This document shows, one piece after another, positions 355-18,979 of a stretch of DNA of 61,504 nt. The translations under genes were made by a program, and so were the position numbers. Where the stretch lies: NCBI GenBank assembly GCA_947476045.1, contig CANJNZ010000021.1:1-61504 (forward strand). The letters are read 5' to 3'. Numbering within the stretch: the stretch's first letter is position 1; every line of letters starts with the position of its first letter. The stretch is from Chthoniobacteraceae bacterium (GTDB taxonomy: Bacteria; Verrucomicrobiota; Verrucomicrobiia; Chthoniobacterales; Chthoniobacteraceae). Under the pieces are notes generated by a model. That model was not told where the DNA came from and did no database searches. It worked only from the letters and a program-made list of their open reading frames with translations.

Positions 355-372
355 AGTGACACCTAACTTGTT

Positions 373-612: not shown

Positions 613-634
613 ATGGGAATGGGAATTATACTGC

Positions 635-650: not shown

Positions 651-656
651 ACTCCC

Positions 657-1055: not shown

Positions 1056-1061
1056 GCGGCA

Positions 1062-3413
1062 TCACAGCGCCTTCACGCGAATCCAGGTCTCCAGCGTTTT
1101 TCCCGTCGCCACATCGAGCACCGTCAGCCGATGCTCGCCCTCCACGGCCTCCGCATAAAACTTTCCGCCCACTTCACGCACCGACAGCGTCGGCGACTTC
1201 CACACCAAATCCCCCGCCCCGCTCACGACCAGCGGCACGAGCGATGACGAGGGAACATCCGGATCGATCACAAACGTCGAGCCCGGCGTCGGCGAAACGA
1301 GATGCAGCCCGCCGCTCCCGGCCACCGCAACACGGGTGCCGATTTGGTTGTCCGCACTTGCCGCCCATTCCGCAAACTCCGCGCCCAGTTTCACCCGCCC
1401 CTGCGCATCGTAATCGCCCGCGCTCTCCATCGCTGGAAGTTGTGTTTCCAAAAACTTTTCGCGCACCGAATCCGCACGCGGCGCAGCGAGCAATTTCCCC
1501 GTGAGCGGATGCACTTCGCGCTCGACGACCCCGGCAGGCCGCTCGAACCACGTCGTCCCAAAACGCCTGTGCAAATCAATCATCACATCGTGTAAAATCG
1601 GCCCCGCCCCCGACACCCCGGACACTTCGCGCATCGGCGTGCCGTCGAAATTTCCCACCCACACACCCACCGTGAACTCCGGGGTGAAACCCATCGCCCA
1701 GTTGTCGCGAAAATCCGTGCTCGTCCCCGTCTTGCACGCCACGGGGAAATCGAAACGCAGCGCCGAATTCGCACCGAACGCTCCCGAGCGCGCCGCGTTG
1801 TCCGCTAGGATATCCGCTACGACCCAGCAAAGCTCTCGCGGCACCGCGGGCCCGCGCGCGTCATTGCTCGCGGCCTCCGCCGCGCCCCTTCGGGCTGCCT
1901 GCGGCAGGCTATCTCGCTCCGCTCGGTTCGACATTCGCAATTCATCGTCCGCGCGCAGACGCACCGGCAACCAGCGACCCATGCGCGCGAGCGTCGCATA
2001 AACATTCGTCAACTCCACCAGCCGCACCTCGGCGTTTCCGATGGTGAGACCAAGTCCGTAATCCTCCGCTGTGCGCGGCAGAGTCGTCACGCCCCACGCC
2101 TGCAAACGCCGCAGCAACGGGCCCGCGCCTCCCAGCGATTGCAGCACGCGCACCGCCGGGATGTTCAGCGAACACGCCAGCGCCTCGCGGTAGCGCACCG
2201 GCCCTTCGCAATGACGATGAAAATTCTCCGGGCGATACGGCCCCGTCGCCGTCGGAAATTCCGTCGGCACATCCGCAACAATCGTCGCCGCCGTGTCGCC
2301 GCGCTCCATCGCGAGCAGGTAGGTCACCGGCTTGATCGTCGAACCCGCCGAGCGAGGCTGAGTCGCGCCATTCACCTGCCCGCTCCCCGGCGCGAAATAA
2401 TCGCCCGACCCCACCAGCCCCAGCACCCCGCCCGTCCGGTTATCCAGCACCACCACGGCGGCATCGCGCACATTCTGCCCGCGCAATTTCGCCAGCCGCT
2501 CCGCGACGCTGCGCTCAATCACGCGATTCAAATCCAGATCGAGCGTCGTCTTCACCACACCCTCTTGTTTTCTGCCTGCGACTTCGTTCATCACCAGTTC
2601 CACGAAATGCGGTGCATTAAAAATCCGCCGCGCCGCTTGCAGGTGAATCGGCTCCGTCATCGCCCGCTCGAATTGCTCCGCCGACAGCCAGCCATTCTCC
2701 CGCATTCTTCGCAGCACCGTTTCCTGCCGACGCTTCGCACCCGCCATGTTCGTGTGCGGATTCAGCCGCGACGGATTCAGCGGCAATCCCATCAGCAGCG
2801 CCGCCTCCGCATCGCTCAAATCACTCAGCGGTTTTCCAAAGTAATAATTCGCCGCCACCACGACGCCGTAGTTCACGTTTCCAAAATCCAGCCGGTTTAA
2901 ATACGCGGCGAGAATTTCCTGCTTCGTCCAAAGCTGCTCCAGCCGCAGCGCCGTCGCCATCTCCACAAGCTTCGTCCCCCACGTGCGCTCGCGCGGCACC
3001 GAGAGCTTGATGAGTTGCTGCGTGATCGTCGAAGCGCCCGAAGTTTTCCTCCCCGCTCGCACGCTCGACCACGCCGCACGCCCAGCCGCCAGCCAGTCCA
3101 CACCCGAGTGCAAATAAAAGCGTTTATCCTCCGCCGCCATCGCCGCACGAATGACAATCTGCGGAATCTCCCCCGCCTCCCGTCGGAACCGCTCCTCCAC
3201 CCGCGCCTCACGCAACGTCTCCCCATTCCGATCCACAAACTCCAAACTCTCCGTCGCCCTCCGCAACAAAGCCTCCGGCACCGGCACAAACTTCAGCCCA
3301 ATCCACGCCGCAACAAAAAGCGCGACCCCGAAAACAACACCCCATTTGACCCACCGCCCCAGCCTTCGCCAAAGCCGAACCTTCATGGAGTCAGGTTTGG
3401 CAGGGCTGCTCAT
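1062..3413 (-). CDS. pbpC: Penicillin-binding protein 1C (transglycosylase/transpeptidase)
   Basis: Predicted 783-residue bifunctional peptidoglycan synthase. After a short basic N-terminus there is one membrane helix (about residues 22-42), then a glycosyltransferase-51 domain with EDKRFYLHSGVD near residue 95 and the STITQQLIKL motif. The penicillin-binding domain has SxxK as STIKP near 359, SLN in ACSLNIPA and KTGTS near 560. The end is a PBP1C-type C-terminal beta domain. The start at 3413 avoids overlap with vapC; 3386 is an alternative. About 26 residues near 492-518, rich in Ala and Arg, interrupt the normal loop between the RLRADDE and AVPRELCWVV segments and look like an inserted repeat. 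PBP1C usually sits beside an alpha-2-macroglobulin gene; here VapBC lies between them. Confidence 0.93.
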   Translation of the reverse strand: MSSPAKPDSMKVRLWRRLGRWVKWGVVFGVALFVAAWIGLKFVPVPEALLRRATESLEFVDRNGETLREARVEERFRREAGEIPQIVIRAAMAAEDKRFYLHSGVDWLAAGRAAWSSVRAGRKTSGASTITQQLIKLSVPRERTWGTKLVEMATALRLEQLWTKQEILAAYLNRLDFGNVNYGVVVAANYYFGKPLSDLSDAEAALLMGLPLNPSRLNPHTNMAGAKRRQETVLRRMRENGWLSAEQFERAMTEPIHLQAARRIFNAPHFVELVMNEVAGRKQEGVVKTTLDLDLNRVIERSVAERLAKLRGQNVRDAAVVVLDNRTGGVLGLVGSGDYFAPGSGQVNGATQPRSAGSTIKPVTYLLAMERGDTAATIVADVPTEFPTATGPYRPENFHRHCEGPVRYREALACSLNIPAVRVLQSLGGAGPLLRRLQAWGVTTLPRTAEDYGLGLTIGNAEVRLVELTNVYATLARMGRWLPVRLRADDELRMSNRAERDSLPQAARRGAAEAASNDARGPAVPRELCWVVADILADNAARSGAFGANSALRFDFPVACKTGTSTDFRDNWAMGFTPEFTVGVWVGNFDGTPMREVSGVSGAGPILHDVMIDLHRRFGTTWFERPAGVVEREVHPLTGKLLAAPRADSVREKFLETQLPAMESAGDYDAQGRVKLGAEFAEWAASADNQIGTRVAVAGSGGLHLVSPTPGSTFVIDPDVPSSSLVPLVVSGAGDLVWKSPTLSVREVGGKFYAEAVEGEHRLTVLDVATGKTLETWIRVKAL
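1858..1940 (-). repeat. Palindromic insert within pbpC
   Basis: This stretch translates in frame as SNRAERDSLPQAARRGAAE and a few more residues, unlike PBP1C sequence. At DNA level it contains the hairpin GCCTG-CGG-CAGGC (1897-1909) and GC-rich clusters typical of mobile palindromic repeats. The flanking protein segments join naturally if it is removed. Exact ends are estimated. Confidence 0.5.
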
Positions 3414-3429
3414 GCAAGTCTGCGCGGCG

Positions 3430-3831
3430 TCAATCCGCAAAAATCGCGGTGAACCCCGCCTGTTCAAAATGACGACCCCCAGTCAGTGCATCCGTGATCC
3501 CCTCATCCGCCATTACCACCAATGAGATGCAATCCGTCAGCGACCACTCCTTGTCCGGGCGCTCGTTGTAGAGTTCCATTCCCCTTGCGAAGTGCGCGGG
3601 TGAAACTTCGATCACCCGGGTCGCAGAATCTTCACGCAATAAATCAAAACCCGCTTTGATTTGCCTGCGAATGTGTGATCCCGCAAATGCATCCGCAACT
3701 TCGGTGAGGACCCATTGAGTTGTCACGATTTCACCATCAAACTTCTGCGCCCATTCCATCACACCTTTGTGATGTTCATCCAGCCGGTTCATGAACGCCA
3801 CATAGAAAAACGCATCAGCGAAAACCTTCAT
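3430..3831 (-). CDS. vapC: VapC-type PIN-domain toxin
   Basis: Predicted 133-residue PIN-domain ribonuclease toxin. The N-terminal strand carries Asp6 (KVFADAFFYVAF), a mid-protein acidic pair follows (VLTEVADAF), and SLTDCISLVVM holds the third PIN acid. The final PIN motif, usually of the form ALTxDxHFEQAGF, reads ALTGGRHFEQAGF, so the expected terminal Asp is Gly. Activity may therefore be altered. Its ATG overlaps the antitoxin stop by 4 bases (ATGA), the usual coupled arrangement. It lies between the alpha-2-macroglobulin gene and pbpC on the same strand. Confidence 0.85.
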   Translation of the reverse strand: MKVFADAFFYVAFMNRLDEHHKGVMEWAQKFDGEIVTTQWVLTEVADAFAGSHIRRQIKAGFDLLREDSATRVIEVSPAHFARGMELYNERPDKEWSLTDCISLVVMADEGITDALTGGRHFEQAGFTAIFAD

Positions 3832-4043
3832 GGCTTCCGCGCATGACCGTGAATGTAGTGATCAAGATTCCGTGCGAGATCGGTCGGCACGTCATTCGCA
3901 ATCCCTGCCAGCTTCGCATAACGATCCGCGATACTCCTGCGGACCGGAAGCTCGGGTTCGATATGAACTTTCGTTCCATCCGGCAAATGCACCCCATCGG
4001 GCAGTTTGATGATGTCGTTCTCTACAATGGCAGTGATGCTCAT
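3828..4043 (-). CDS. VapB-like antitoxin (AF2212/DUF104-like)
   Basis: Predicted 71-residue antitoxin. The N-terminal half, MSITAIVENDIIKLPDGVHL followed by PDGTKVHIE, matches the beta-rich DNA-binding fold of DUF104/AbrB-like antitoxins. The C-terminal half is a charged tail expected to wrap the toxin. An upstream in-frame start at 4097 is possible, but the Met at 4043 gives the family's usual N-terminus. Toxin-antitoxin operons of this kind normally repress their own promoter, which would lie in 4044-4118; no operator is evident by eye. Confidence 0.8.
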   Translation of the reverse strand: MSITAIVENDIIKLPDGVHLPDGTKVHIEPELPVRRSIADRYAKLAGIANDVPTDLARNLDHYIHGHARKP

Positions 4044-4118
4044 GAGCGGAAAGTGCCCGACTTTCTGCGGTGAGTCAACGTGCGGCGCAGTCACCATCGG
4101 TCCTGTGCTATTTTCGCC

Positions 4119-7100
4119 TCACAGTCCTTTGCCTTTCACATTCTCGGAGGCGCCGAGGCCGAAGCGTTGAGGGCGATACATTTCCTCGATTTTTGCGGGT
4201 GGCGCGGTGGCGGAGCCTGCGGAGCGGACGCGGGCGAGGTAGCGGATTTCGTGTTTTCCCGGCCACAGCGAGTCGCAAAAGAATAGCGCACGATCTTCGC
4301 GCAGTTCCTCGTAGTCGGATGTCCATGTTCGCGCCAGTTCGGCGCCTGCCATCGCCTGCGTTTTGAATTCGGGATTCACCGCCTCGAAAACAGCAGGCAG
4401 CGGGTCGTCCACCACCACGTAGCCAGCCCGGCCCGGCGCAGTGAAATTGAGCGTGATCAACACACGGTCGCCCACGTGCGGGTCGCCGATGTCGGAGAGT
4501 GTGCCGTCGTCATTAATGCGCTGGTAGCGCCGCGTGATTGCGTAGCCGCGATCCTTCCGCTCGGTCACGAGTGTCTTTGGCCGTGCCTCGATGGTTACGT
4601 TGGTGAAAACGCGACCTTTTGCCGGATTGCTGAGTTTCAACGACGGGGCGGAACCGAATGGAAACTCCTTCTCGAAATAGTCGCCCTTCGCCGCGAGCTT
4701 GAATGCCGTCTGCTCCTCGCCGACGACGAGCGCTCCCTTCACTTCTTTGCGATCCGATTCCGTGCGACGGATGTATTCCGCGAGCCCGAGCACGGCCCAC
4801 ACGTTGCCCTGCGTCGTCATCCAGTGTCCGTTTATGCGTTCATCGAAAAGCGCATCGGCAATCGCCTTCGTGCCGTCCGAGTTCGGTGCGAGCCGCGACC
4901 ATGCGAGCAACCGGATACCCTGCGCGCGAGCGATACAGCCGAACCAGAAATCTTCAGCAACCGGCTTGTCCTGCATTTTCAAAAGCGTGTCCGCCATCTT
5001 CGCCGAGCCCTTGCTTTCCAGCACCGCGAGCACCAGCAGCGCACGGCTTTCCTGCGAGAGCTTGTCGCGCTTTTTGAAGAGCAATTCGTGATATGCCGCC
5101 TCCGGTTTGCCCGCCGCCGCGAGCGCGTAGCAGGCGAGAGCGCGCGGGGAGAGTTCCCATTCGTTGTCCGTGTCCGCAGCACCGCGCAGTTGCTTGCTGA
5201 GAAAGCCGAGCAGCCGTGTGTAGTCATCATCGGGCAACGCAAAGCCCGCGCGTTTTGCCAGCGTGAGGCCGAGTGCGGCGTAGGAACTTCCCCAGAAATT
5301 GGACGTGTTCGCGCCGGGCCAGTAGCCGAGACCGCCGTCACCCGTCTGCATTTTGAAAAGATGCGTGATGCTTTTCTCGACCGCTTTCGTGAAATCCTCG
5401 TCCTTGCGATTCAACTCCGGCAGCATCGTGCGAAAATCGCGCAGCGCCAGCCAGGGCAGCATCGCCGAGGTCGTCTGCTCCACGCAGCCGTAGGGATAGT
5501 GCAGCAGTTCGCTCACGCCCTCGCGCAGTTCAAACACACGCGAGTTTGAAACGCTCACCCGCACCAGACCTTTGCCACCGAGCAGCGCGGGATCGAGTCC
5601 GGCGAGCAAATCGGCATCCGCATCCGCACGCGACTGGCGCACTTCGCGCAGCACCGGAGCTGGAAAGTGCACGAGAAACTTCGTCTCCACCGTATCGCTC
5701 AATTTTCCAAACTCAGCACTCCACAACCACACCGCCTCGCCCGTCTCGCGAAACTCCACCGGAAAATCCACGGCGACGGATTCATTCGCAGCGATGGATA
5801 CGCGCTTCTCCGTTTCAGTGGCGCTCGCGGTTGCGTTGAGTTTCAGACGCACCACGACCTCGCCTGCGTTGGCGGTCGTGTTGTGCAACACGGCGCGGGC
5901 GAGCATTTGATCGCCGACATTCGCAAAGCGCGGCGGCGAGGGCTCCAGCATGAGCGGCTTGTTGATTTCAAACGCCGATTCGCCGTGACCAAACTGATCC
6001 CTCTTACTCTGCGCGACCGCCATCACGCGGTAGCGGGTCAGTCCGTCTGGCGCTTTGAAATTCGCCATCACATTCCCCGCTTCATCCGTCCGCAACGACG
6101 CACTCCAGTGGGCTGTGCCGAGGAAATTTCGCCGCACCGCCGCATCGCCGCCCTTTCCAAAACCACCCACGAGATAGCCCTTGTTTTCAAAAGCGCGCCC
6201 GTCCGGATCTTCGCCGAGCAGATGATCGAGCGTGACACCCGTCGTTACATCCAGACGCATCAGCTTGCTGAAATACGCGAGCGGGTCGGGCGTTTCAAAA
6301 CCTGTGAGACTGAGCACGCCTTCATCCGCCGCCCACAGCGTCACTTCCGCGCCGACAACCGGTTTGCCAGCGATGTCGCGCACTTCGCACAGCACGTTCA
6401 CGTCATCGCCGGGGCGCACCTGCGGCTGCGCTGGCTTTACGTTCACGTAGAGCTTCGCGTCGGGCCGGGCGACGCGCAATTCGGCGTAACCCACGCGATA
6501 CTCGGGCATCTTGAATTTCTTCGTCGAATCCTGCGCGCCGCGCAGCACCAGCACCGACACAAACACATTCGGCGCGTCTGCTTCTTCCAGCGGCACACGC
6601 ACCACCGGCGCATTACCTTCCAGATTTACAAAGAAGTGCCGCCTCACATTTTCACGCTCGACCGTGACCAGCGCGCGTCCCGCGATGGGCGTCTTCACCA
6701 GCAGCGTCGCCTGCTCGCCTGCACGATACTCCGGCTTGTCGGCGGCGAGTTCGATTTGAAAACGATTCCGATAATTCCACGCGAGCTGATCCTTGCCATA
6801 GACATGGACCGTCGTCGTCGTGATCACATCGCGACCCGCAGCATCCCGCGCCACGGCAGAAACGAGATACAGGCCGGGCTTCCCGACTTTCAGGCTCTCA
6901 TCCTTTTTCTCAGGGTCGGCGAGTTCCCACTTACTGCCCTTCTTCTCGATTTTTGCCGTCGTCAGCGGCGCCTGCCCGACGAATTGCATCTGCGGCTCGC
7001 TGCGGAAATTTTCCGTATCATCCGCTTCCTCCACGCGGTTGGTCTGCCATTCGATGCGCGTGAGCTTCACATCCGCCTGCACCGGCTCCAGCATGGGCGA

Positions 7101-9827
7101 GCCATCGTTGCGAACGGCGATGAGTTGAATCGGTAGCGCCTCTCCCTCGCGCACCACATCGGGCATCCGGCGCAGACCGAGGTAAAATTCCGAACTGTGC
7201 GCGGTAAATTCCGTGCGCTCCGCAACCGTCTGCTGATCGAGATCGGTGATCTCCGAGGTAAAGCGCACCTGCCGTGGCTGCGGCAGTTTCGCGTTGCCCG
7301 GCACGTTGAACGACACTTTCGACACGCCACCCGCTCCGATGTCCACTTTCCCCTGCGCGGAGAAAGTCGTCGCGCCACTCAGTTTCTGTTCGAGCCGGTA
7401 ATCGTAGAGCGCATTGGCAAACACGAACTCCTCGAATCCCTCGGGCGTAAATTTTTCGTCGCTGGCACGCACGCTCCACGCGAGTTGCGCCTTCGAGAGA
7501 GCCTTGCCCATGTAGTATTTCGCCGCGATGGACATCTCCAAGGGCGTGGACAATGCGGGCGATTTCGGCGCGGCCACTTTTACCTCAAACGCATTCGGCT
7601 CATATTCCTCCACACTCCAGCCGTGGCTGATCGGGCTCCAGTCCTCGTTGCCATCGCCTTTGCCAAAAACCAGCAACGCGCGGTAGTAGCCAGTGACATC
7701 GGGCGGCATGATGTAGGTGGCATCGAAGGAGCCGAATTCACTCAGCGTCACCGTCTGTTCGCCGAGGACTCGTCCACGCGGTCCTTTCACGCGGAGCTTC
7801 ACCTTCATCCCCGCTGGCAAATGCGGTTTTCCGCTCGCGTAGCTGCGCACGATGCCCTTCACGCGCACCGTTTCGCCGGGGCGATAAATAGGGCGGTCGC
7901 TAAACATAATGCCGCGCAAATCCTGCGCCTGCTCGTAACCGTCGCCCTCCATGATGTCCTCCTCGTCGCCCCACACATTGATGCGGAAGCGCCCGAATTG
8001 CATCTCGCGCCGTTCGCCATCGAAGCGAATGACGTGACGATCCTCCCCGCTCGTCACGATGAGCCAGCGCGGCGATTTGTCTGTCAGCTTGGCCATGCGC
8101 GCCGTGCCATCGGCGGCCGTCTTCGTCTCGGCGAGAATCGCGCCCTTTTCGTCCACGAGTCTCAGCGAAGCGCCAGCAGACGGCTCGGCGGATGCGAGCG
8201 AGAAGACGTGGAAAAAGTCCGCATCCGCTTCCTTCCACACCAGCCCGAGATCCGTCACCTGCACGAGCGCCTGAGTGCCGACGAGCTTCACATTCGGAGC
8301 CGCTGCGTTGATTTGCTCGGCGGTGAGCAGAACCAGTCCCGTCTTCCCTGCGCCGAGGATTTCGTCCCAGTTCAGCGCGAGCAGTTTTTTCTCATCCGTC
8401 TGCGCATCCACCGTGAAGTCCTTCGTCCACGCAACCGCGCCGGGCACGGATTTGTCGTCCAGCTTTTGCAACCATTCACCGTCCTCCTCGCCGCCCTCTT
8501 TGTAATACTTCGCCCACGCATCCAGCGCCATCGTCGCGCTGTCGGGCGGCACCACTTTCGCAGTCACGCGCAGACGCTTCACATTCACCCCCATGAGATG
8601 AAAATTCCTCGTGCCAGTGCGCTGCTGATGCTCCGAGAAACCTTGGAAGTAGAGGCGCGCAGGGACCGGCGCAAAACTCACCGCCTTCGTGAACGGCTGG
8701 ACGAGCGTGAAAGGTTCCGCCGCCGGAATCTCGCCCGCAAATGTGAACGTGTAATCTTTCGCCAACTCGAAATCCCCCGTGATGATGAGCGTGTCCCGTT
8801 CATCCATCACCGTGCCCGGCAACTCCACGTGCAGATTTGCCACAGCCGGCTCCACCTTCACCCATTTTGCGGGCTCCTTTTTCACCGCCTTTGCGAGCGG
8901 CTTGCTGAATTTCACCACCATTCGCTTACCTGAGTTCACGAGGTTTTCCACCGCGACGCTTTCCACGATGAATGGCTTCACTTCGCCCACATCCAGCGTG
9001 AATACCTCGGCCAGCTTTTCGCCACTCGATGAAGCGAGCCCCTTCTCCACAACGAGCTTCCATCCTTTGCCGGGATGCAGAGATTTTGCGGGGGTGATGA
9101 CGATTTGATTGAGAAGGATCGGGCCGTCTTTGTGCGGAGCAGGCTCGCCATCCTCCTCTTCCTCATCGGCGGGTTTTTTCTTCGTCGCACCAGCCGTGCG
9201 ATGCTCGTGAAACTGCTGTGCCCACGTGAGCGAGCTTTTGTCGTCAGAGCGGTAGCTCGAAACCTCGTAGTCGGGATGCTTCCGCACATCCACATACTCC
9301 ACCACCGCATCCACACGCTGCTTCGCCTCATTGATAAATGTGAACGACTTCGCATTGGGCTCCAGGTTCGAGTTGAAAAGCAAAACCAGCCTCGGTTGCG
9401 TGGGCACATTCTCCGGCGAAAAATACTCCGGCGCAGCCCAGCCCTTCACGCGAAAGGCGGGCGAACTCACCGTCTCCTTGAGCGAACCGGAAAACGATTT
9501 GCCGTCCGCCTTTTTCAAATCACCACGCAACGTGAGCTGATAACTGGTCGCGAGCGGCGGCGGCTCCGTCGGCTGAAAGACACCGCTCTTCGGCGAAAGC
9601 CACATCCACTTCCCGGCCAGCGCCGGCTTGATGACAAGCGGCGAATCCACCGCTTTCCCCACCACATCCTCGGCAACCATCGGCATCGCAAAGCGCAGCT
9701 CCAGCAAGGAACTCGCCTTGAGCTGGCGCTGCTCACCAAGTGTTTCGAGACTCAGCGACACCGGCGCTTCCTTGGGAGCGGCAAAAAGCGGCACGGCAAT
9801 CAGGGAAAGAAGGGCGATAATTTTCAT
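4119..9827 (-). CDS. Bacterial alpha-2-macroglobulin family protein
   Basis: Predicted 1902-residue secreted protease-trap protein. The signal peptide MKIIALLSLIAVPLFAAP has no lipobox Cys, so unlike E. coli YfhM it is probably not a lipoprotein. Macroglobulin domains include the MG2 motif FSDRPIYRPGETVRVKGIV near residue 640. The thioester site is intact as YPYGCVEQTTSAMLPW near residue 1445, followed by the alpha-helical thioester domain and receptor-binding-like domain. The family entraps proteases in the periplasm and is usually paired with PBP1C, suggesting joint defence and repair of the wall. The start at 9827 is chosen for the signal peptide; the track extends 21 codons further without function. 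The nearest gene upstream is divergent. Confidence 0.93.
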   Translation of the reverse strand: MKIIALLSLIAVPLFAAPKEAPVSLSLETLGEQRQLKASSLLELRFAMPMVAEDVVGKAVDSPLVIKPALAGKWMWLSPKSGVFQPTEPPPLATSYQLTLRGDLKKADGKSFSGSLKETVSSPAFRVKGWAAPEYFSPENVPTQPRLVLLFNSNLEPNAKSFTFINEAKQRVDAVVEYVDVRKHPDYEVSSYRSDDKSSLTWAQQFHEHRTAGATKKKPADEEEEDGEPAPHKDGPILLNQIVITPAKSLHPGKGWKLVVEKGLASSSGEKLAEVFTLDVGEVKPFIVESVAVENLVNSGKRMVVKFSKPLAKAVKKEPAKWVKVEPAVANLHVELPGTVMDERDTLIITGDFELAKDYTFTFAGEIPAAEPFTLVQPFTKAVSFAPVPARLYFQGFSEHQQRTGTRNFHLMGVNVKRLRVTAKVVPPDSATMALDAWAKYYKEGGEEDGEWLQKLDDKSVPGAVAWTKDFTVDAQTDEKKLLALNWDEILGAGKTGLVLLTAEQINAAAPNVKLVGTQALVQVTDLGLVWKEADADFFHVFSLASAEPSAGASLRLVDEKGAILAETKTAADGTARMAKLTDKSPRWLIVTSGEDRHVIRFDGERREMQFGRFRINVWGDEEDIMEGDGYEQAQDLRGIMFSDRPIYRPGETVRVKGIVRSYASGKPHLPAGMKVKLRVKGPRGRVLGEQTVTLSEFGSFDATYIMPPDVTGYYRALLVFGKGDGNEDWSPISHGWSVEEYEPNAFEVKVAAPKSPALSTPLEMSIAAKYYMGKALSKAQLAWSVRASDEKFTPEGFEEFVFANALYDYRLEQKLSGATTFSAQGKVDIGAGGVSKVSFNVPGNAKLPQPRQVRFTSEITDLDQQTVAERTEFTAHSSEFYLGLRRMPDVVREGEALPIQLIAVRNDGSPMLEPVQADVKLTRIEWQTNRVEEADDTENFRSEPQMQFVGQAPLTTAKIEKKGSKWELADPEKKDESLKVGKPGLYLVSAVARDAAGRDVITTTTVHVYGKDQLAWNYRNRFQIELAADKPEYRAGEQATLLVKTPIAGRALVTVERENVRRHFFVNLEGNAPVVRVPLEEADAPNVFVSVLVLRGAQDSTKKFKMPEYRVGYAELRVARPDAKLYVNVKPAQPQVRPGDDVNVLCEVRDIAGKPVVGAEVTLWAADEGVLSLTGFETPDPLAYFSKLMRLDVTTGVTLDHLLGEDPDGRAFENKGYLVGGFGKGGDAAVRRNFLGTAHWSASLRTDEAGNVMANFKAPDGLTRYRVMAVAQSKRDQFGHGESAFEINKPLMLEPSPPRFANVGDQMLARAVLHNTTANAGEVVVRLKLNATASATETEKRVSIAANESVAVDFPVEFRETGEAVWLWSAEFGKLSDTVETKFLVHFPAPVLREVRQSRADADADLLAGLDPALLGGKGLVRVSVSNSRVFELREGVSELLHYPYGCVEQTTSAMLPWLALRDFRTMLPELNRKDEDFTKAVEKSITHLFKMQTGDGGLGYWPGANTSNFWGSSYAALGLTLAKRAGFALPDDDYTRLLGFLSKQLRGAADTDNEWELSPRALACYALAAAGKPEAAYHELLFKKRDKLSQESRALLVLAVLESKGSAKMADTLLKMQDKPVAEDFWFGCIARAQGIRLLAWSRLAPNSDGTKAIADALFDERINGHWMTTQGNVWAVLGLAEYIRRTESDRKEVKGALVVGEEQTAFKLAAKGDYFEKEFPFGSAPSLKLSNPAKGRVFTNVTIEARPKTLVTERKDRGYAITRRYQRINDDGTLSDIGDPHVGDRVLITLNFTAPGRAGYVVVDDPLPAVFEAVNPEFKTQAMAGAELARTWTSDYEELREDRALFFCDSLWPGKHEIRYLARVRSAGSATAPPAKIEEMYRPQRFGLGASENVKGKGL

Positions 9828-10116
9828 GGCAAAGACAGATACGTTGGACTGCGTGCGATCTTTCAACAACGCATCCGGCAAAGCGAGCATCGTTCACGAC
9901 AATGAAAGGGCCTGTGCGCCTTACTTCCCAACTCGCACTGCTCACGTTCCCATGTCCAAGCAAGACTTCGCCATCGCCTTCTGCACACCGCTGTTGCAGC
10001 CACACTTCAATCTGTATGGCAAAAAACAAAGCAATGCCCCTGAACGTCTTCATCGGTTGCCCCGTAAAACTCCTCATCTGTCCTGACGTGCCGCAGCGCG
10101 CAGCCATCATCACGCT
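9828..10116. other. Intergenic region between the A2M and TIR-NACHT-LRR genes
   Basis: About 290 bases between divergent genes. It must contain both promoters, but I could not identify convincing -35/-10 pairs. Short frames on both strands lack family resemblance. No clear Shine-Dalgarno sequence precedes the ATG at 10117. Confidence 0.4.
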
Positions 10117-13100
10117 ATGAAAAAGAATGCATCTCCCGACAAGCGCACCGTCCGCTACTTCGTCTCCTACGCCCACGCTGACGGAAAACTCCCGTCGAGC
10201 CTCCTCACCGAGCTGAAGAAGCAGCTCGACTGCTGCTCCGGCTACGACTTTCTGCGCTGGCAGGACACGCAGATTCTCGTGGGAGAAAAGTGGCACGCCG
10301 AAATCCAAGCCGGCTTGGAATCTTGCGATTTCGGTCTCCTGCTCGTCAGCCCGTCCTTCCTGGGCAGTAAGTATATCGGGAACCACGAACTCCCTCGGTT
10401 CGTTTCGGGCAAGAAACTCTGCATGCCCGTAGCGCTATGCCCAATCGACTTTGACAGCCAAGATCTTAAGGGACTCGGAACCGACCAGATATTCCGCTTC
10501 TCCCCGCCGCGCGCCGTTCAGCCGAAAGCCTTCGGAGATTGCACGGCCGCAAATCACAAGCGGGACTTTGCGCACGAGCTTTTCAAAAAGATCGTCGCCC
10601 GCCTCGACAAAGTGTTCGCGGAAGAAACGAAGAAACCCACCTCTACCGCTACTGCAAAAAAGAAGAAAGCTCCCAAGGCCAGCACTCCCGCGCTCGACTC
10701 CGGCACTGCGCTCCACCGCTACTTCGTCGGCTTGCTCGACCAGTTCGCCATCTACGAAAATCTCGGCCTTCCTGTCCCCGAGCGCGACGGCAAAGAGGGC
10801 GAGAAGGACGTGCAGCTCCCCATCCGCAAGCTCTTCGTCGCCCCCGCCTGCACGGAGGCGCATTTCCGCCCCGAGGCATTCGACGCCGCATTGCGCGAAG
10901 GGAAGAATCCCGCCGCGCCGCTCCTCCCGCACCTCGCCCCAGCGAAGTCCCGCACCGTCCTCCTCGCCGATCCCGGCATGGGGAAGAGCACGCTCATCCA
11001 GTGGCTCATCTCCACCCTCGCGGATGAAGCCGTGCCGCCCGGCGCGGAAGCACTGCGCGGAGCCATCCCGCTGCCCTTCATCCTCCGCGACCTCGTCACG
11101 CATCTGCCGCAGGACGTGAAGCACTGGAACTGGAACGCGCTCGTTGACGCCTTCCGCCAGTGGCGGCATCGTGGCAAGGGCGCTCCCCTCGCCGCGCCGC
11201 TCACAGCGGACGAGGCGCTCTTCCGCTCCATCCTCGCCTCACCCGACGCCTTCTTCCTCATTGATGGCCTCGATGAAATCGGCGACCCGCAACGCCGTCT
11301 CGCCATCCGCGACGCGATTTGGGAGGGGTTTGAAAAGTATCCCAATGCGCGGTGGCTCATCACTTCGCGGATTGTGGGGTATGAGCAGGCGGAGGTGCAT
11401 TTTAAACACCGAATGTTGGCCCAATTGCTACCGTTTCACCAATTTGAGGTTGAGGAATCCGCGGAGCATCGGGCTGATCTATCTTTGAAACTGAAACCCG
11501 GCCAAACCTTGAGATACTGGGGAGGTGACTACATCCGGCACGCCCATCTCCTCCACCTCGCCCCCTTCGACGACACCCAGCAGCTCGCCTTCGCCCGGAA
11601 CTGGTATGTCCCCCGCCTCGGCGACTCTGCGGGCACGCAGCGCGCGGACGACTTCATCGCCGCCGTCCATCGGAATGACCACACCCGCGTCATCAGCCGC
11701 GTGCCAAATCTCCTCTACCTCCTCGCTCTGCTCTTCCGGCACAGCGCCCATCTGCCGAATGGTCGCGCGCTCGTCTATGCCGCAATCTCCTCCGCCTACC
11801 TCGCAGATATCGACCTCGACAGGCGCTTGCACGATTCCCTTCTCGTCCCATGGAAGTTCGAGGAAAAGGAAGAACTCCTCGCCCTCGTCGCGATGCGGAT
11901 GCAAGAACTCCGTGCCTCGGCTCCAACAGATATTGCAGACGATGTCGGCGAAATCCTCGTTACCCGCGCGCAGCTCGAGGAATGGCTCAGCCCGCGCTTC
12001 GGCGCTGGCGACGCCGAAGCGTGCGCCGAGTTGCACCGCTTCCTCGACCACATTGCCAACCGCTCCGGCCTCCTGCTCCCGCGCGGCGAAGGCGTCTTCG
12101 GCTTTGCCCACCTCTCCTTTCAGGAATACTACGCCGCCTGCGCGCTGGAGAAGGAGTTCCAGCGCATCCTCACCGAGAAATCGCAGCCCGCAGGGGACGA
12201 CATCTTCGGCACCCCTGCGTCCGCTGCGAAGAAGAACGAGGAGAAGCTATTCGCCGAGATGGCCGCGCAGTCCGCTTGGCATGAGCCGCTTCTCTTCCTC
12301 GTGGAAAAGCTCCGCCACAGCGCGCCATACACGCGCACAATCCTCGTCTGGACATTCCCCCAACTCGCCACCGAGCCGCCGAGCGCGGACGAAGACAGCA
12401 AACATGCTGAAGTCACAAAGTGGATGCCCTTCACCGCCGCGCAGCTCCTCGCCGGCATCTCGCTGGATCAGGAAGTCACACTCGATGATGCGCAACGCGC
12501 GAAGATCTGGCGGAGTCTATGGCAGGCCGATATCGCCGCCAATTCTGCTGGTTGGAGGATCGGCCATTCACTCATTGTCGCTGGGAGCCCCTACCAGCTC
12601 CCAGCGTTGCAGACCGCCGTCTCACTCCGACCGAAGCGGCTCGCACTTACCGGCTGCACGGCGGTGAGCGACCTGAAGCCACTGACAGGCTTGGCTTCAT
12701 TAAACGAACTTGTCCTCAATCGCTGCACTGCCGTGGCCGACTTGGAGCCACTGGCGGGCCTAGATTCCTTGCACACACTCGTCCTCGCTGGCTGCACTGC
12801 GGTGAGCGACCTGAAGCCACTCGCGGGTCTGGCCTCCTTGAACGAACTCGTCCTCGCTGGCTGCACTGCGGTGAGCGACCTGAAGCCGCTCGCGGGTCTG
12901 GCCTCCTTGAACAAACTCATCCTCAATCGCTGCACTGCCGTGACCGACTTGGAGCCACTGGCGGGCCTAGATTCCTTGCACACACTCGTCCTCGCTGGCT
13001 GCACTGCGGTGAGCGACCTGAAGCCGCTCGCGGGTCTGGCCTCCTTGAACACACTCAACCTCGACGGCTGCACTGCGGTGAGCGACCTGACTCCTCTCGA

Positions 13101-13230
13101 AAATTTGCACGCCCTTCGTGAACTCCATCTCGATCCCTATACCGGCATCAACGAGATGAAAGTGAGGGCGCTGATGGCGAAGCTTCCGAAGCTCAAAATT
13201 ATCGGCCCGTTTGGCGGGGGTAAGAAGTAG
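10117..13230 (+). CDS. TIR-NACHT-leucine-rich-repeat protein (bacterial NLR-like defence candidate)
   Basis: Predicted 1037-residue cytosolic protein. An N-terminal TIR domain begins RYFVSYAHADGKL (residues 13-25) and contains LLLVSPSFLGSKYIGNHEL, where Glu91 sits at the position of the catalytic NADase glutamate. A Lys-rich linker (about 170-190) follows. The NACHT ATPase has Walker A DPGMGKST (285-292), Walker B FFLIDGLDEI (379-388) and the TSR motif at 416-418. A helical region contains GFAHLSFQEYYAACALE, the typical end of NACHT modules. The C-terminus has seven 23-residue leucine-rich repeats (844-1004). Bacterial NACHT proteins are known phage sensors and TIR domains deplete NAD, so abortive phage defence is the likely role, by inference. 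There is no partner gene; a ParDE-like pair lies downstream. Confidence 0.9.
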   Translation: MKKNASPDKRTVRYFVSYAHADGKLPSSLLTELKKQLDCCSGYDFLRWQDTQILVGEKWHAEIQAGLESCDFGLLLVSPSFLGSKYIGNHELPRFVSGKKLCMPVALCPIDFDSQDLKGLGTDQIFRFSPPRAVQPKAFGDCTAANHKRDFAHELFKKIVARLDKVFAEETKKPTSTATAKKKKAPKASTPALDSGTALHRYFVGLLDQFAIYENLGLPVPERDGKEGEKDVQLPIRKLFVAPACTEAHFRPEAFDAALREGKNPAAPLLPHLAPAKSRTVLLADPGMGKSTLIQWLISTLADEAVPPGAEALRGAIPLPFILRDLVTHLPQDVKHWNWNALVDAFRQWRHRGKGAPLAAPLTADEALFRSILASPDAFFLIDGLDEIGDPQRRLAIRDAIWEGFEKYPNARWLITSRIVGYEQAEVHFKHRMLAQLLPFHQFEVEESAEHRADLSLKLKPGQTLRYWGGDYIRHAHLLHLAPFDDTQQLAFARNWYVPRLGDSAGTQRADDFIAAVHRNDHTRVISRVPNLLYLLALLFRHSAHLPNGRALVYAAISSAYLADIDLDRRLHDSLLVPWKFEEKEELLALVAMRMQELRASAPTDIADDVGEILVTRAQLEEWLSPRFGAGDAEACAELHRFLDHIANRSGLLLPRGEGVFGFAHLSFQEYYAACALEKEFQRILTEKSQPAGDDIFGTPASAAKKNEEKLFAEMAAQSAWHEPLLFLVEKLRHSAPYTRTILVWTFPQLATEPPSADEDSKHAEVTKWMPFTAAQLLAGISLDQEVTLDDAQRAKIWRSLWQADIAANSAGWRIGHSLIVAGSPYQLPALQTAVSLRPKRLALTGCTAVSDLKPLTGLASLNELVLNRCTAVADLEPLAGLDSLHTLVLAGCTAVSDLKPLAGLASLNELVLAGCTAVSDLKPLAGLASLNKLILNRCTAVTDLEPLAGLDSLHTLVLAGCTAVSDLKPLAGLASLNTLNLDGCTAVSDLTPLENLHALRELHLDPYTGINEMKVRALMAKLPKLKIIGPFGGGKK
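12646..13128 (+). repeat. Seven tandem 69-bp units encoding leucine-rich repeats
   Basis: Units start at 12646, 12715, 12784, 12853, 12922, 12991 and 13060. Each encodes a version of LAGCTAVSDLKPLAGLASLN plus three residues. Units 3 and 4 differ at about 3 of 69 bases. Units 2-3 and 5-6 are nearly identical across some 130 bases at a spacing of 207 bp, showing a higher-order duplication of three units. Confidence 0.92.
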
Positions 13231-13358
13231 CGACGCGGACGTGGCGCGCTGTAAAAGAGACTGCCGAAACTCAATACCCTCCGGGAGTGAAAAGGCGTCA
13301 TCGTCGCATTGAATGAGCGCGGTTGATTGCTTCATCCATGATGGCGCTGGCTGCGGCT

Positions 13359-13411
13359 GGGGATGAAAAACTTGTTCCCTCGGCGGGGTAACGGGCGGTT
13401 CATTTGCGCGG
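13359..13411 (+). repeat. 53-bp dispersed repeat, copy 2
   Basis: This segment matches 560-612 at 48 of 53 positions. In the same frame, the ATG at 13341 gives MALAAAGDEKLVPSAG ending at TAA 13389-13391. The 20 bases after the stop are also conserved apart from one change. Confidence 0.75.
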
Positions 13412-13528
13412 GGGTTTGAGGTGTGGAGAATGGGGGCATGAATACGCAGCCATGTTCATCGCGGCCCCGCTGGGGCAGGCTTCGACGCTGAAGCAGTGGG
13501 CGATTTGCCGGGGGCGGTGGTTTTGCCG

Positions 13529-13548
13529 ACGAAAGCTCGGGCTTTCGT
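13529..13548. repeat. Perfect hairpin, 8-bp stem
   Basis: ACGAAAGC and GCTTTCGT flank a TCGG loop. It is too far from the NLR stop (about 300 bases) and lacks a T-run, so it is better seen as part of a repeat element than as a terminator. Confidence 0.55.
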
Positions 13549-13575
13549 TGCCCAATCGGTGGAACCGGTTGCGAA

Positions 13576-13638
13576 ATCCGATGACGCGGTCTGGCAACCC
13601 AGTGACACGGATCACCAACCCAGTGACGCGGATCAAAG
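13576..13638. repeat. 21-bp tandem repeat, two strong copies and one diverged
   Basis: 13597-13617 and 13618-13638 share the core ACCCAGTGACRCGGATCA; 13576-13596 is a weaker copy. On the reverse strand they read as the heptads IRVTGLV, IRVTGLP and DRVIGFR. No protein family is recognised. Confidence 0.6.
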
Positions 13639-13676
13639 ATCAGCCCTCACTCGCGGCTCCAAGAGCGTCGGGCTCA

Positions 13677-14006
13677 TCACTCCGGCGATTCCAGCATTCG
13701 GCGAGGCAGATCTCGCGCGCCGTGCATGACGCGCTCAATGGACAGTTCGCGTGGTGTGGTTCGATAGAAAATCAGATGGACGCTGAAGCTGCCGCCAATC
13801 GAGAGCGAGCGGATGCTCCTCAACTCTGGCGCGCGGAACCGCCTAAGACGACCAAGTTGTGGCTGCTTAGCGAGCCGCGCCACCGTGCTATCAAACGCCT
13901 TCAGGAAACGTTCCGCCACTTCACCGCCAGCATTATCGAGATACCATCGGTATTGGTGCGTGAGATCTATCTCAGCGCGTCCGGCGATGCTCACGCGCAC
14001 GCTCAT
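13677..14006 (-). CDS. ParE/RelE-family toxin
   Basis: Predicted 109-residue toxin of the ParE/RelE superfamily. It opens with MSVRVSIAGRAEIDLTHQYR and continues with a helix and WYLDNAGGEVAERFLKAF, the typical paired-helix start, followed by a beta-sheet core with FSVHLIFYRTTPRELSIERV and a basic end. The ATG follows the antitoxin stop directly, with no spacer, so the two are translationally linked. ParE toxins poison gyrase and RelE toxins cleave mRNA; the sequence alone fits ParE slightly better. It lies 446 bases from the NLR-like gene, on the opposite strand. Confidence 0.8.
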   Translation of the reverse strand: MSVRVSIAGRAEIDLTHQYRWYLDNAGGEVAERFLKAFDSTVARLAKQPQLGRLRRFRAPELRSIRSLSIGGSFSVHLIFYRTTPRELSIERVMHGARDLPRRMLESPE

Positions 14007-14240
14007 TTACAGCTTCTTCGCAGCCTTGCGCACCCGGTCGAGTGTGGACGGGCCGTAGGTGCGATGAGGGCTTTGCACTCCGTCGAGTATCGCTGTTTCG
14101 AGAAACGGTGATTCGTAGCCACCACGCTCATCAAGAGCGCGCAACGCGTCGCGCACCACATCGCTCTCATCCACGTAACGACCGCTGCGCACCTTTTCCT
14201 TTACGAGAGTTTCGAGTTCTTTGGTGAGCGTCACTTTCAT
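14007..14240 (-). CDS. ParD-like antitoxin (ribbon-helix-helix)
   Basis: Predicted 77-residue antitoxin. The N-terminus KVTLTKELETLVKEKVRSG is a ribbon-helix-helix DNA-binding module, followed by RYVDESDVVRDALRALDER, the hallmark of ParD/CopG antitoxins, and a basic C-terminal tail. The Met at 14240 gives the family start; an upstream start at 14324 would add unrelated residues. It is first in the operon and probably represses the promoter in 14241-14356, a region shared with the divergent DUF1549 gene. Confidence 0.83.
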   Translation of the reverse strand: MKVTLTKELETLVKEKVRSGRYVDESDVVRDALRALDERGGYESPFLETAILDGVQSPHRTYGPSTLDRVRKAAKKL

Positions 14241-14356
14241 GGCGGGCAACCTTGCACAAAGGCCCTGCGGAGGCAATCCCTCACTCGCGCTTCTGTGAAC
14301 GACGGCGAGACTTTTCAAAGACATCGCCCTCGGTCGCGGTTACATGATGGAAGCCC

Positions 14357-17300
14357 ATGAAAGCATTTCTCGCCATTGCCATCGCAGTAGTTCCCGCATT
14401 CGCCGCCGATGCGCCGGATTTCACACGCGAAGTGCGCCCGATTTTGTCGAACTACTGCTACAAATGCCACGGGCCGGATGACAAGGCGCGCAAGGCGAAG
14501 TTGCGGTTCGATTTGAGGGAATCGGCGACGGGCAAGGCAAAGTCCGACAGCATCGCCATCGTGCCCGGAAAACCGGACGAGAGCGAACTGGTGACGCGCA
14601 TTTTCAGCAAGGACGAGGAGGAGGTGATGCCGCCGCCCTCGATGAAAAAAGTGCTGACGCCGGAGCAGAAGGATGTGCTGAAGCGATGGATTGCGGCGGG
14701 CGCGGAATACAAACAGCACTGGTCTTTCGTCGCGCCGAAGAAGGCGGAGCTGCCGCCGCACGCGGAGAAGCTTCGCAATCCGATTGATGCGTTCATCGCG
14801 CAGAAACTCGCGGCGAATCAGTTGAAGATGTCGCCCGAGGCCGATGCGGCCACGCTCTGCCGTCGTGTCCATTTGGATCTCATCGGTCTGCCGCCGACTC
14901 CTGCGGAGGTGGACGAGTTCATCCAATCCGCAATCCGCAATCCGCAATCCGCAATAGAAACCCTCGCCGACAGGCTGCTGGCCTCGCCGCAATACGGCGA
15001 GCGCTGGGCGCGCCGGTGGCTCGACCTGGCGCGTTACGCAGACACGAACGGCTACGAAAAGGACCGCGAGCGCAGCATCTGGCCGTGGCGCGACTGGGTC
15101 ATCAATGCGCTGAACGCGGACATGCCGTTTGATCAATTCACCATCGAACAAATCGCGGGCGACCTGCTGCCGGGGGCGACGCGTGAGCAGAAGGTGGCGA
15201 CCGGTTTTCACCGCAACACGATGCTGAACGAAGAAGGGGGAATTGACCCGCTGGAGTTTCGCTTCAACGCCATGACCGACCGCATGACGACGACGGGCGC
15301 GACGTGGCTCGGCCTCACGCTCGGCTGCGCGCAGTGCCACACGCACAAATACGATCCGATCCCGCATCGTGAGTATTTTCAGATGATGGCGTGCATGGAT
15401 AATGCGGATGAACTCGATCTGGATCTCCCCTCCCCCGAGGCGGTGGAAGCGGCGAGGCAAAATGCCGAAAACGCGGCTAAGAAGCTCGCGGAGCTGCCTG
15501 AGAAATATCCGCTCGATACGGAAAAGTGGACAGCGTTGCGTCCGCTCAGCGTGCAGACGGCGAGCGGCGCGCAGGCGAAATTGCTCAATGACAATTCGGC
15601 GCTCTTTCCGCCCAACGGTCCGGAGAAGGAAACGACCACCATAGTCATCGAAAGCGAGAGCGCGGAGATCAGCGAATTGAAACTCGAAGCCCTCGCCGAT
15701 GCGTCCTTTCCAAACAAAGCGCCGGGCCGTGCGAAGAGCGGAAACTTTGTGCTGACCGAGATCAGCGTGCTGGCGGCAGCGAAGTCGGCACCGGACAAAA
15801 CGCAGCCGGTAAAAATCGTGCGCGCAGAGTCGAGCGCGAATCAACCGGGCTTTCCGGTGGGCGATGCGATTGATGGAAAACCCGAAACCGGCTGGGGCGT
15901 GGATCTCAACGACAAGAAGATGAACGTGAACCGCGCGGCGACGTTCACTTTCGAAAAGCCGATCCAATTTCCCGGCGGCACGCGTCTCGTGGTGAAACTG
16001 GAGCAGCAGTGGGGGCAGGAGCACACGCTCGGTCGCATGCGTCTCAGCGTGGGTGCGCCGCCGGCAGATTCGCAACAAATCGCCGCGCGCAGAAAGCAGG
16101 CGCTGGAAAAAGATTTCGCCGCGTGGCTGGCGGATAAACGCAAGAGCGCGGTTCACTGGCAACCGCTCACGCCGGTGGAGGCAAAGTCGAACTCGCCGCT
16201 GCTCACCGTTCGGAAGGACGCGTCCATTCTCGCGAGCGGTGATTTTACCAAGAGCGACACGTATGAACTGAAATTCCGCGATTTGCCTGCAGGTGTGACA
16301 GCGGTGCGACTGGAGGCGCTGCCCGACGATTCGCTGCCCGCACACGGCCCCGGCATGGCGTATTACGAAGGGCCAAAGGGCGACTTTTTCCTCGGCGAAT
16401 TCCAACTCAGCGCGGACGGACAGCCGGTGAGATTTCCCATCGCCGTCGAGGATCATTCCAGCCTCGCGATCAGTAGCAACAGAGGCTCCGCGAAGTCCGC
16501 GATGGACGGCGATACGCAGACCGGATGGAGCACCGCAAACCGCCCCGGCGAGCGACACATGGCGATTTTCCGCCTCGCGGAACCAGCGCCCGCTGCAAAG
16601 GAATGGACGCTGAAAATGATCATGGGGCGGCACTATGCGTGCAGTCTTGGGTGCTTCCGCATTTCCGTCACCACAGGCAATGCCGAGGCTCCCGCCCTCG
16701 ACATGGCTCAGGAAACCGAGGCGCTGCTGAGCGTGCCGGATGATAAACTGACCGCCTCGCAGAGGGGAAAACTTCGGGAGGCATTTTTGCTCTCGCTGCC
16801 CGAGTTTGCGAACGATGCGAAGACGATCCGCTCTTTGCTCAAGCCCGCGCAAGCGAAGACGACGCTCGTTTTCCAAGAGCGTCCCGCATCGAATCCACGC
16901 CCCACTTTTCTGCGCAACCGCGGCGAATACCTCCAGCCGCTCGAACGCGTCGAACCCGGCGTGCTCAGTGTGCTGAACCCGCTGCCAAAGGACACGCCGC
17001 CGAACCGTCTCTCCTACGCAAAATGGCTCGTCGCGCGCGAAAATCCACTGACTGCCCGCGTCGTAGTGAACCGCGCATGGGCGGCTTTTTTCGGACGCGG
17101 CCTAGTGAAGACCACCGAGGATTTCGGACTGCAAGGCGACACGCCATCGCATCCCGAACTGCTCGACTGGCTCGCGGTGGAGTTCATGGACAGCGGCTGG
17201 TCGCAGAAAAAACTGCACCGCTTGATCGTGACGAGCGCGACCTACCGGCAGTCATCCCGCACAACGCCGGAAGCACTCGCGCGCGATCCGGAAAACCGCC

Positions 17301-17917
17301 TGCTCGCCCACTTCCCGCGCGTGCGGCTCGATGCCGAGATCATCCGCGACTCCACCCTGCGCGCGAGCGATCTGCTCGTGTTGAAAATCGGCGGCCCCAG
17401 CGTGCGCCCTCCGCAGCCCGCGAGCGTCACGGAGACGGCCTACGGCGGCGGCGGCTGGAACGCCAGCAACGGCGAGGATCGCTACCGCCGCAGCCTCTAC
17501 ACATTTTCCAAGCGCACCGCGCCGTTCGGCCTCTACAACACCTTCGACGCTCCCACCGGCGAATCCTGCATCGCACGCCGCGATGTCTCGAACACCTCAC
17601 TGCAAGCCCTCTCACTGCTGAACGACGTGATTTTCCTCGAAGCCTCGCGGGCGCTCGGAAAAATCCTCACCACACGCGAAGGCAGCGTGGATGAGCGCGT
17701 GAACGAAGCGTATCTGCGCGTCCTCGGACGCAAACCGGCGGACGAGGAGCGCACGGCCCTCGCAAAATTTTACGAAGTCCAGCAAGCGCGCTTCGCCGCA
17801 AAGGAACTCGATGCCGCAAAAGCAACCGGCGAAAAAGACGCAACCCCCGAACGCGCCGCCTGGACCGTCCTCGCCCGCGCCCTCTTCAACCTTGATGAAG
17901 CGGTGACGAAGGGGTAA
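14357..17917 (+). CDS. Planctomycete-type cytochrome c / DUF1549 / DUF1553 protein
   Basis: Predicted 1186-residue exported protein. A signal peptide ([17 protein letters not shown]) precedes a planctomycete cytochrome domain with heme motif CYKCH (34-38). DUF1549 follows with a second motif [12 protein letters not shown] (Cys324). A central region of beta-sandwich or discoidin-like repeats ([24 protein letters not shown]) separates it from a C-terminal DUF1553 beginning [20 protein letters not shown]. The function of these families is unproven; they are abundant in Planctomycetes and Verrucomicrobia and thought to act on polysaccharides or in periplasmic redox. A GGAAG ribosome-binding-like sequence lies just upstream. 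A 7-base repeat tract sits inside DUF1549. It stands alone, apart from the cytochrome locus at 30-46 kb. Confidence 0.9.
14924..14955 (+). repeat. Heptanucleotide tract (CAATCCG)4 in coding sequence
   Basis: Four perfect CAATCCG units plus CAAT run through the DUF1549 gene and encode [10 protein letters not shown]. Because the unit is not a multiple of three, gain or loss of one copy would shift the reading frame. Confidence 0.85.
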
Positions 17918-18017
17918 GGCTAATTTTTAATACCCTGCGAGGACCGGGCTCACGCAACGTCACATCTGTCCGCTTATATAGCCTGCGATAGAACTGCAGA
18001 AGAGCAGTCCCGTGTTT

Positions 18018-18431
18018 CTAGCCGAAGCTAAGGTTCTTCACACGCGCTTTGCGGCAGGAATTGAGGACGTCGATAACCCGCTCGTGTGTTGCCTCCATCG
18101 AGGGGCGGATGATGACGGGATCCTCAGGATCCGACTCCATGGAGCGGGTCAGGTCTGCCGTAAGTTGTGAAAGTTCGTGGTCGCTTTTGCCGCCACCTTT
18201 GGGGTCGTTGTTCACAGACACGTTCCCCGCTGAATCAATGTCGATGACGATAGGCACCTTGGGTGCATTGGATGACTCGGCTCCCGAGGGCAGTGCTACC
18301 TTCAAAAATCCTTCGGTGATGTTTTGCCCCGCGCATGCCATGAAAAACAGCAATAGCACGAATACAACATCCACCATGGGTGCAATCTGGAATCCGAAAT
18401 CTCCGTCTGCTTCTCCTACGCTGCCGCCCAT
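18018..18431 (-). CDS. exbD: ExbD/TolR-family protein
   Basis: Predicted 137-residue inner-membrane protein with a single membrane helix in FQIAPMVDVVFVLLLFFMA, containing the conserved Asp, and a periplasmic domain ending in ATHERVIDVLNSCRKARVK. It is the last gene of a TPR-ExbB-ExbD-ExbD operon, 39 bases after the other exbD. It resembles the orphan ExbD at 657 closely, especially in the membrane motif and in VIRPxxExxHER. Two ExbD partners per ExbB may form a heteromeric channel rotor, as proposed for some Tol/Ton systems; that is inference. Confidence 0.9.
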   Translation of the reverse strand: MGGSVGEADGDFGFQIAPMVDVVFVLLLFFMACAGQNITEGFLKVALPSGAESSNAPKVPIVIDIDSAGNVSVNNDPKGGGKSDHELSQLTADLTRSMESDPEDPVIIRPSMEATHERVIDVLNSCRKARVKNLSFG

Positions 18432-18470
18432 ATTAGTGAGTTCCTTTCTGGTTCATGGTTGGAATTTTGG

Positions 18471-18968: not shown

Positions 18969-18979
18969 GAAAGGGCGCG

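Follow-up and report, generated by a model that had tools for sequence, protein, structure and literature searches.

The DNA considered here, a 61,504-nucleotide contig of a Chthoniobacteraceae bacterium (GenBank assembly GCA_947476045.1, contig CANJNZ010000021.1), was analysed at its full length and is called the window below; it is one whole contig (G000:C21) of a genome assembly that is 96.8% complete. It carries a gene (10117..13230, forward strand) that opens with an ATG and continues for 1037 amino acids with no internal stops, and sequence profiles confirm that this one open reading frame (ORF) encodes three domains: a TIR domain (residues 15-108), a NACHT ATPase (residues 281-449) and an internalin-type array of leucine-rich repeats (LRRs; residues 839-1022). 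Sequence analysis also shows that the motifs are intact, that different effectors sit on one NACHT-LRR chassis, that the LRRs turn over and that the gene is accessory. The protein is probably a self-contained receptor of the STAND (signal transduction ATPases with numerous domains) or NLR (nucleotide-binding leucine-rich-repeat) type, which would respond to the sensing of a phage with abortive infection brought about by NADase activity.

All three Pfam domain calls lie above the curated cut-off of their family. TIR_2 matches with E 4.1e-8 (34.2 bits against a cut-off of 28), within an N-terminal region that runs to the start of a Lys-rich linker (residues 1-172; 10117..10632, forward strand); NACHT matches with E 2.2e-9 (37.8 bits against 26.7; 10957..11463, forward strand); and LRR_4 matches in five stretches with E 2.2e-19. 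The protein thus has the tripartite plan of an N-terminal effector, a NACHT domain and C-terminal sensor repeats, as an earlier sequence-only reading of this DNA had proposed in placing TIR, NACHT and LRRs in a single gene. The residues named in that reading are also correct: Lys290 lies in the Walker A motif ADPGMGKS (within residues 284-292), the Walker B motif FFLIDGLDE (residues 379-387) includes D383, D386 and E387, and Glu91 is where it was said to be. The NACHT region further contains the triplet TSR at residues 416-418, and a further complete motif, FGFAHLSFQEYY, is found at residues 661-672. The NACHT motif residues are invariant in all five rows of an alignment of the window protein with four relatives. 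A variable insert at residues 427-476 (11395..11544, forward strand) lies within the NACHT region, with a conserved block on either side, and its length varies from one aligned relative to another. In the genome as a whole, a single match to TIR_2 and a single match to NACHT exceed the cut-offs.

The exchange of parts is seen most directly in a contig of a Pedosphaera metagenome-assembled genome (L034), which encodes the same NACHT-LRR chassis with a different N-terminus. The two proteins are 87.5% identical over 232 aligned residues in window residues 190-426 and 78% identical over 357 residues in window residues 477-838, with the variable insert between these blocks hardly alignable; between the N-terminal 185 or so residues of L034 and the window TIR domain, nothing aligns beyond scattered residues. 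The homology begins in the Lys-rich linker (around residues 172-194; 10630..10698, forward strand; alignment A1), which marks the exchange junction, and at the DNA level it is gap-free from 10737 onward. The arrays at the other end of the two proteins each consist of eight 23-residue units, cut in a fixed 23-residue register (a split by regular expression missed most of the window units). The window array (residues 839-1022; 12631..13182, forward strand) has a 69-bp DNA period, and a tandem-repeat finder reports a 207-bp period with 90% matches over 12652-13090. Units at matching positions in the two arrays share 58% of their amino acids and a mean of 0.64 of their nucleotides, against 0.63 of nucleotides for all cross pairs, and units within the window array reach a nucleotide identity of 0.99 to each other. 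Since matched units are no closer than cross pairs and the window units are nearly identical, the arrays underwent homogenisation or duplication once the two lineages had separated, and by this comparison of units the LRR sensor is rebuilt by tandem-unit duplication. The similarity of the NACHT block, the unalignable N-termini and the 58% identity of the LRRs together argue that the switch has been conserved, the effector exchanged and the sensor rebuilt.

The effector of L034 looks like DUF4062, by way of intermediates. Its N-terminus matches the PADLOC candidate PDC-S60 (6.1e-9) and is linked (E 2.8e-5) to the protein of L106, which itself falls just short of the DUF4062 family PF13271 (24.4 bits against a cut-off of 24.7); eight aligned rows of such N-termini share an SSPGD-like start, and all eight keep a Glu in an SGTEEEF-like motif. 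The label "DUF4062-like" is retained here because of the PDC-S60 match, the L106 link and the shared pattern with its kept Glu. Outright membership of DUF4062 was considered and rejected: the L034 N-terminus has no Pfam match to PF13271 and no match in the PDB at E <= 10, and a profile of 22 DUF4062 regions gives it -1.1 bits, less than the top-scoring one of 200 shuffles (6.0 bits). That profile is a rough one, made from 22 of 30 loci (seven were dropped for early stops and one was too short) at a fixed offset that may have misplaced rows; compared with the L034 N-terminus by hhalign, it gave E 0.09 and a probability of 0.6%. Relatives of the L034 N-terminus occur in 13 of 147 related genomes at E <= 0.01 and in 3 of 387 genomes of the phylum at E <= 0.001. 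A 2026 preprint describes DUF4062 as a TIR-like NADase domain that has a catalytic Glu and acts against phages (PMC13174449), and by analogy both effectors, the window TIR domain and that of L034, are predicted to be NADases. The likeness of L034 to these Swarozyc/DUF4062 proteins lies in the similar effector with its conserved Glu; it differs from them in having no Pfam DUF4062 match, and the Swarozyc proteins tested in the preprint carry a small auxiliary sensor domain.

For the window protein, the candidate catalytic residue is Glu91 (codon 10387-10389), within the sequence YIGNHELPRF. Among the fetched loci, all 10 distinct TIR genes (11 significant rows) have Glu in its column, with a common spacing of [FY]x4E; six weak secondary rows (five gapped in that column and one with Glu) are excluded from this count. 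In a separate alignment of seven rows (A3), Glu91 is one of 11 columns invariant in all seven. A weak HMMER alignment with AbTir (7uwg, E 0.31) sets the query HEL on YEL and Glu91 at chain position 78. The chain is 137 residues long and its model ends at residue 267, so that position 78, counted back arithmetically from that end, would be E208; E208 is reported as required for the NADase activity of AbTir (PMC11374754). A structural model of the TIR domain, built from four sequences, reached a pLDDT (predicted local distance difference test score) of 60.7. When it was compared with solved structures by VIA-align, the five top rows were all TIR domains, namely BtTir (Z 10.5, root-mean-square deviation 3.2 A, 132 aligned), TcpB (9.4), PdTIR (9.2), RPS4/RRS1 (9.1) and AbTir (9.1), and the first unrelated fold stood at Z 9.0; Foldseek alone gave no match for this model at E <= 0.001. 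The model rests on four rows: a search of viral contigs for further TIR sequences gave three loci by profile, and of six found by DNA pattern one had a TIR-like frame, which aligned badly and was dropped.

The action of the protein most likely follows its domain order in reverse. The LRR array would recognise a molecule that comes from a phage or has been altered by one, the NACHT domain would then exchange ADP for ATP and oligomerise, and the clustered TIR domains would cleave NAD+ by means of Glu91, so that the infected cell is stopped. The NACHT domain would in this scheme be a fixed chassis on which the N-terminal effector can be exchanged, with TIR in the window, a DUF4062-like domain in L034 and a Gly-rich hydrophobic segment in two further relatives (genomes G328 and G331). 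Oligomerisation, NAD+ cleavage, abortive infection and the phage trigger are carried over by analogy from TIR-NLR (PMC9122126), bNACHT proteins (PMC12169576) and TIR NADases. According to the text available from PMC9122126, a single TIR-STAND-TPR protein (with tetratricopeptide repeats, TPRs) of P4-like satellites is proven to be antiphage and has siblings in which SIR2 or a nuclease replaces TIR. That TIR-NLR resembles the window protein in being one protein with an N-terminal TIR domain, a central STAND NTPase, C-terminal repeats and a replaceable effector; it differs in that its repeats are TPRs rather than LRRs, and the STAND subtypes are likened by plan only. The bNACHT proteins have a central NACHT domain, an N-terminal effector and a C-terminal sensor, and some of them, which have LRRs, are described as bona fide bacterial NLRs (PMC12169576). 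The window protein has the same order of parts, LRRs included, and differs in its TIR effector from the members described in the available part of that paper, whose effector is a nuclease or is not evident. Related TIR domains and LRRs are also combined in LRR-Roc-COR-TIR proteins from the same order or family (L048, L049 and L050 by Pfam, L047 by eye), but in reverse order, with the LRRs N-terminal, the TIR domain C-terminal and Roc-COR where the window protein has NACHT.

Defence by a single TIR-STAND-repeat gene whose effector can be replaced has thus been described before (PMC9122126), and so have NACHT-LRR proteins in bacteria (PMC12169576). In the open-licence literature searched, no report was found of a bacterial TIR-NACHT-LRR protein with a relative bearing another NADase-type effector on the same chassis, and a search there for bacterial TIR-NACHT proteins returned a single paper, on amphioxus, an absence that says little. 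The sequence-only reading was sound on the domains and missed the exchange of effectors, the remodelling of the LRRs and the TPRs of the nearest proven analogue. Of the possible functions, the one that it proposed, a defence candidate of the NLR kind, has the strongest support, given that the plan is proven antiphage elsewhere, that the gene is accessory and that effector and sensor turn over; the phage sensing and NAD depletion that it also proposed are predictions drawn from these analogues.

The NACHT-LRR chassis family is rare and scattered, judging by profile searches. A NACHT profile made from the window protein and L034 finds 4 of 387 phylum genomes at E <= 1e-15, the window's own genome included, and 1 of 40 family genomes at E <= 1e-10, which is that same genome. 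A search with the whole protein matches 39 of the 147 relatives, mostly through LRR or TIR stretches; among these 147 there is a single long NACHT match, in G059 (residues 232-659, 35%), with shorter ones in G004 and G031.

Several results weigh against the receptor reading. The better-scoring HMMER alignment with a solved TIR domain, that with BtTir (7uxr, E 4.3e-4), contains a gap that sets Glu91 opposite Met; the [FY]x4E spacing is one residue longer than the WxxxE of AbTir; and one row of a four-row viral TIR alignment is gapped at the Glu91 column. The family alignment decides for Glu91 as the glutamate at the catalytic position, as the sequence-only reading had it, with the pairwise alignments to solved TIRs split, AbTir for and BtTir against. 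The full-length AlphaFold model, built from two sequences, has a mean pLDDT of 40.1 and is poor outside the LRRs, so that it models the repeats, neither supports nor refutes a NACHT fold, and leaves that fold to rest on sequence profiles. Searches of phages, plasmids and viral contigs gave 14 and 39 matching records, of which none reached 80% coverage, no match by pattern, and at most LRR or NACHT stretches; no mobile carrier was therefore seen. Finally, PADLOC found no match for three small neighbours of the gene (those encoding ParE, ParD and a PIN protein).

Other ways of reading the gene have to be weighed against these results. The TIR domain might make a signal nucleotide, an isomer of cyclic ADP-ribose (cADPR), that activates an effector encoded at another locus of the genome, in the manner of ThsB in Thoeris. 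In PADLOC the TIR domain indeed matches ThsB best (4.6e-7), and cADPR-isomer products have been reported for TIRs of plants and prokaryotes (PMC10022894); however, no partner gene is adjacent, and the genome, within the completeness of its assembly, contains no SIR2_2 match at E <= 0.001 (other ThsA-like effectors were not sought), which leaves this alternative unlikely but worth keeping in view. The claim of the sequence-only reading that the gene has no partners is right as far as the genes on either side of it are concerned, an alpha-2-macroglobulin gene diverging upstream and a ParE/ParD pair converging downstream. An improbable second alternative is a receptor for cell death or for self/non-self discrimination that is aimed elsewhere than at phages, for example at stress, predation or kin recognition. 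Other LRR proteins with similar units occur in the genus, and such modules have been linked to multicellular bacteria (PMC8195603, PMC10907252), but the accessory distribution and the exchange of effectors resemble what PMC9122126 describes for antiphage STANDs. That the gene is a decayed, silent or functionless chimera is highly improbable: the variable insert and the fresh LRR duplications could be drift, and a sigma-70 scan of 9800-14400 found no promoter-like sites where 0.8 were expected in shuffles (a weak test in this phylum), but the codons are intact throughout, the catalytic motifs are kept and the NACHT motif residues do not vary among the five aligned rows.

The effector exchange may have left a trace at the start of the gene. 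A 34-codon ORF (10016..10120, forward strand) ends in a TGA that overlaps the TIR start codon (ATGA) and is a candidate scar of the beginning of a DUF4062-like effector: its first residues, MAKNKAMPLNVFIGCP, align with MSKRTPNSLHVFIGCP of L034, ATG to ATG. The protein-level score of 50 was reached by 0 of 1000 shuffles (maximum 48), the DNA match of 21 of 25 bases (score 30) by 1 of 1000, and among 1066 tiles of the window the best score, again 50, fell to two tiles that both overlap this site, the next being 47. Counting against a scar, the ORF was not among the matches shown for a 15-sequence family profile, no matching stretch turned up upstream of the ATG, and the site had been spotted by eye before it was tested. 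On these mixed tests a scar is reasonably likely, and if it is real, the window lineage once had an L034-type effector that was replaced by TIR. A fuller account, which can be held only tentatively, is that TIR overwrote a DUF4062-like NADase on the NACHT-LRR chassis, that the old start now couples translation through the ATGA overlap, and that the LRR array was independently rebuilt; the locus would then be a natural record of bacterial NLRs changing weapon and target separately.

The remaining chassis relatives, which are more distant, vary further at their N-termini. In G328 and G331 the protein opens with a Gly-rich hydrophobic segment (19-21% Gly and 5-7 GxxxG motifs, with start codons chosen by eye). 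The Gly-rich GxxxG N-termini that replace TIR in L041 (around residues 123-197 of the ORF) and L043 are candidate membrane-acting effectors. The G331 relative is split across two contig ends (L042:7997-8671 and L043), with an IS110-type transposase frame, recognised by eye, at the L042 end, and the gene may have been interrupted by an insertion element. The relative in G375 (L044:6964-11487) has an unassigned N-terminus and no Pfam LRR match, its LRR-like units being seen by eye; a gene for a separate P-loop ATPase lies 24 bases upstream of it. In G059 the frame (L045:2-2866) is truncated where its contig stops and starts near the NACHT domain; directly next to it lies a KAP NTPase gene with PADLOC matches to PDC-S20 (2e-29) and QatA. 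Elsewhere, L046:1736-5578 encodes a protein that fills this three-part plan with a different set of domains: an N-terminal TIR, an nSTAND1 NTPase and WD40 repeats.

The receptor gene lies within a block of the window, 1059..14293, that is lacking at the same place in the near relative G001, and the block is therefore accessory. In G001, DNA matching the window from 14294 onward is followed 0.9 kb later by a match to window 532-1058; the flanking DUF1549 protein is 95% identical, and by this measure no genome is nearer than G001. G006 is equally near, and its contig ends inside the DUF1549 gene; in the other four genus genomes compared, the window is matched solely in the DUF1549 gene. Upstream of the receptor gene, the block contains genes for a transglycosylase-type penicillin-binding protein (1062-3467), a PIN protein (3430-3831) and the alpha-2-macroglobulin (4119-9890), which in G001 has matches of only 28-35%. 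Downstream stand ParE toxin (13677-14006) and ParD antitoxin (14007-14324) genes on the reverse strand (13677..14324; Pfam 2.1e-12 and 3.4e-5), which are not thought to be partners of the receptor gene, and a DUF1549/DUF1553 gene. The latter contains a perfect 7-bp repeat, CAATCCG, in 4.6 copies (14924-14955), where a change of one copy would shift the frame. The site of the missing block in G001 (L065:5440-6423) holds small ORFs, including a PIN-like frame preceded by a small frame; by eye these may be a toxin-antitoxin pair, and the site a spot of turnover. A 57-bp direct repeat (89%) at 556-612 and 13355-13411, present nowhere else in the genome, is perhaps a trace of the arrival of the block; its second copy, just downstream of the receptor gene, repeats the start of an ORF at 558-1055. 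Foreign origin was also sought in base composition and rejected, with a G+C fraction of 0.54-0.64 over 1-19000, 0.60-0.63 in the gene, and no step.

If the receptor reading is correct, bacteria hold single genes with the layout of plant TIR receptors, in which a TIR domain, a nucleotide switch and LRRs are joined, and relatives of such genes would reveal which part of a receptor stays fixed and which is exchanged. The window gene and its L034 counterpart amount to a natural experiment, with one switch, two effectors predicted to have the same chemistry and two LRR arrays. With this pair it becomes testable whether a bacterial NLR has an effector and a sensor that can be plugged in independently of each other, and what the LRR array would see in a phage.

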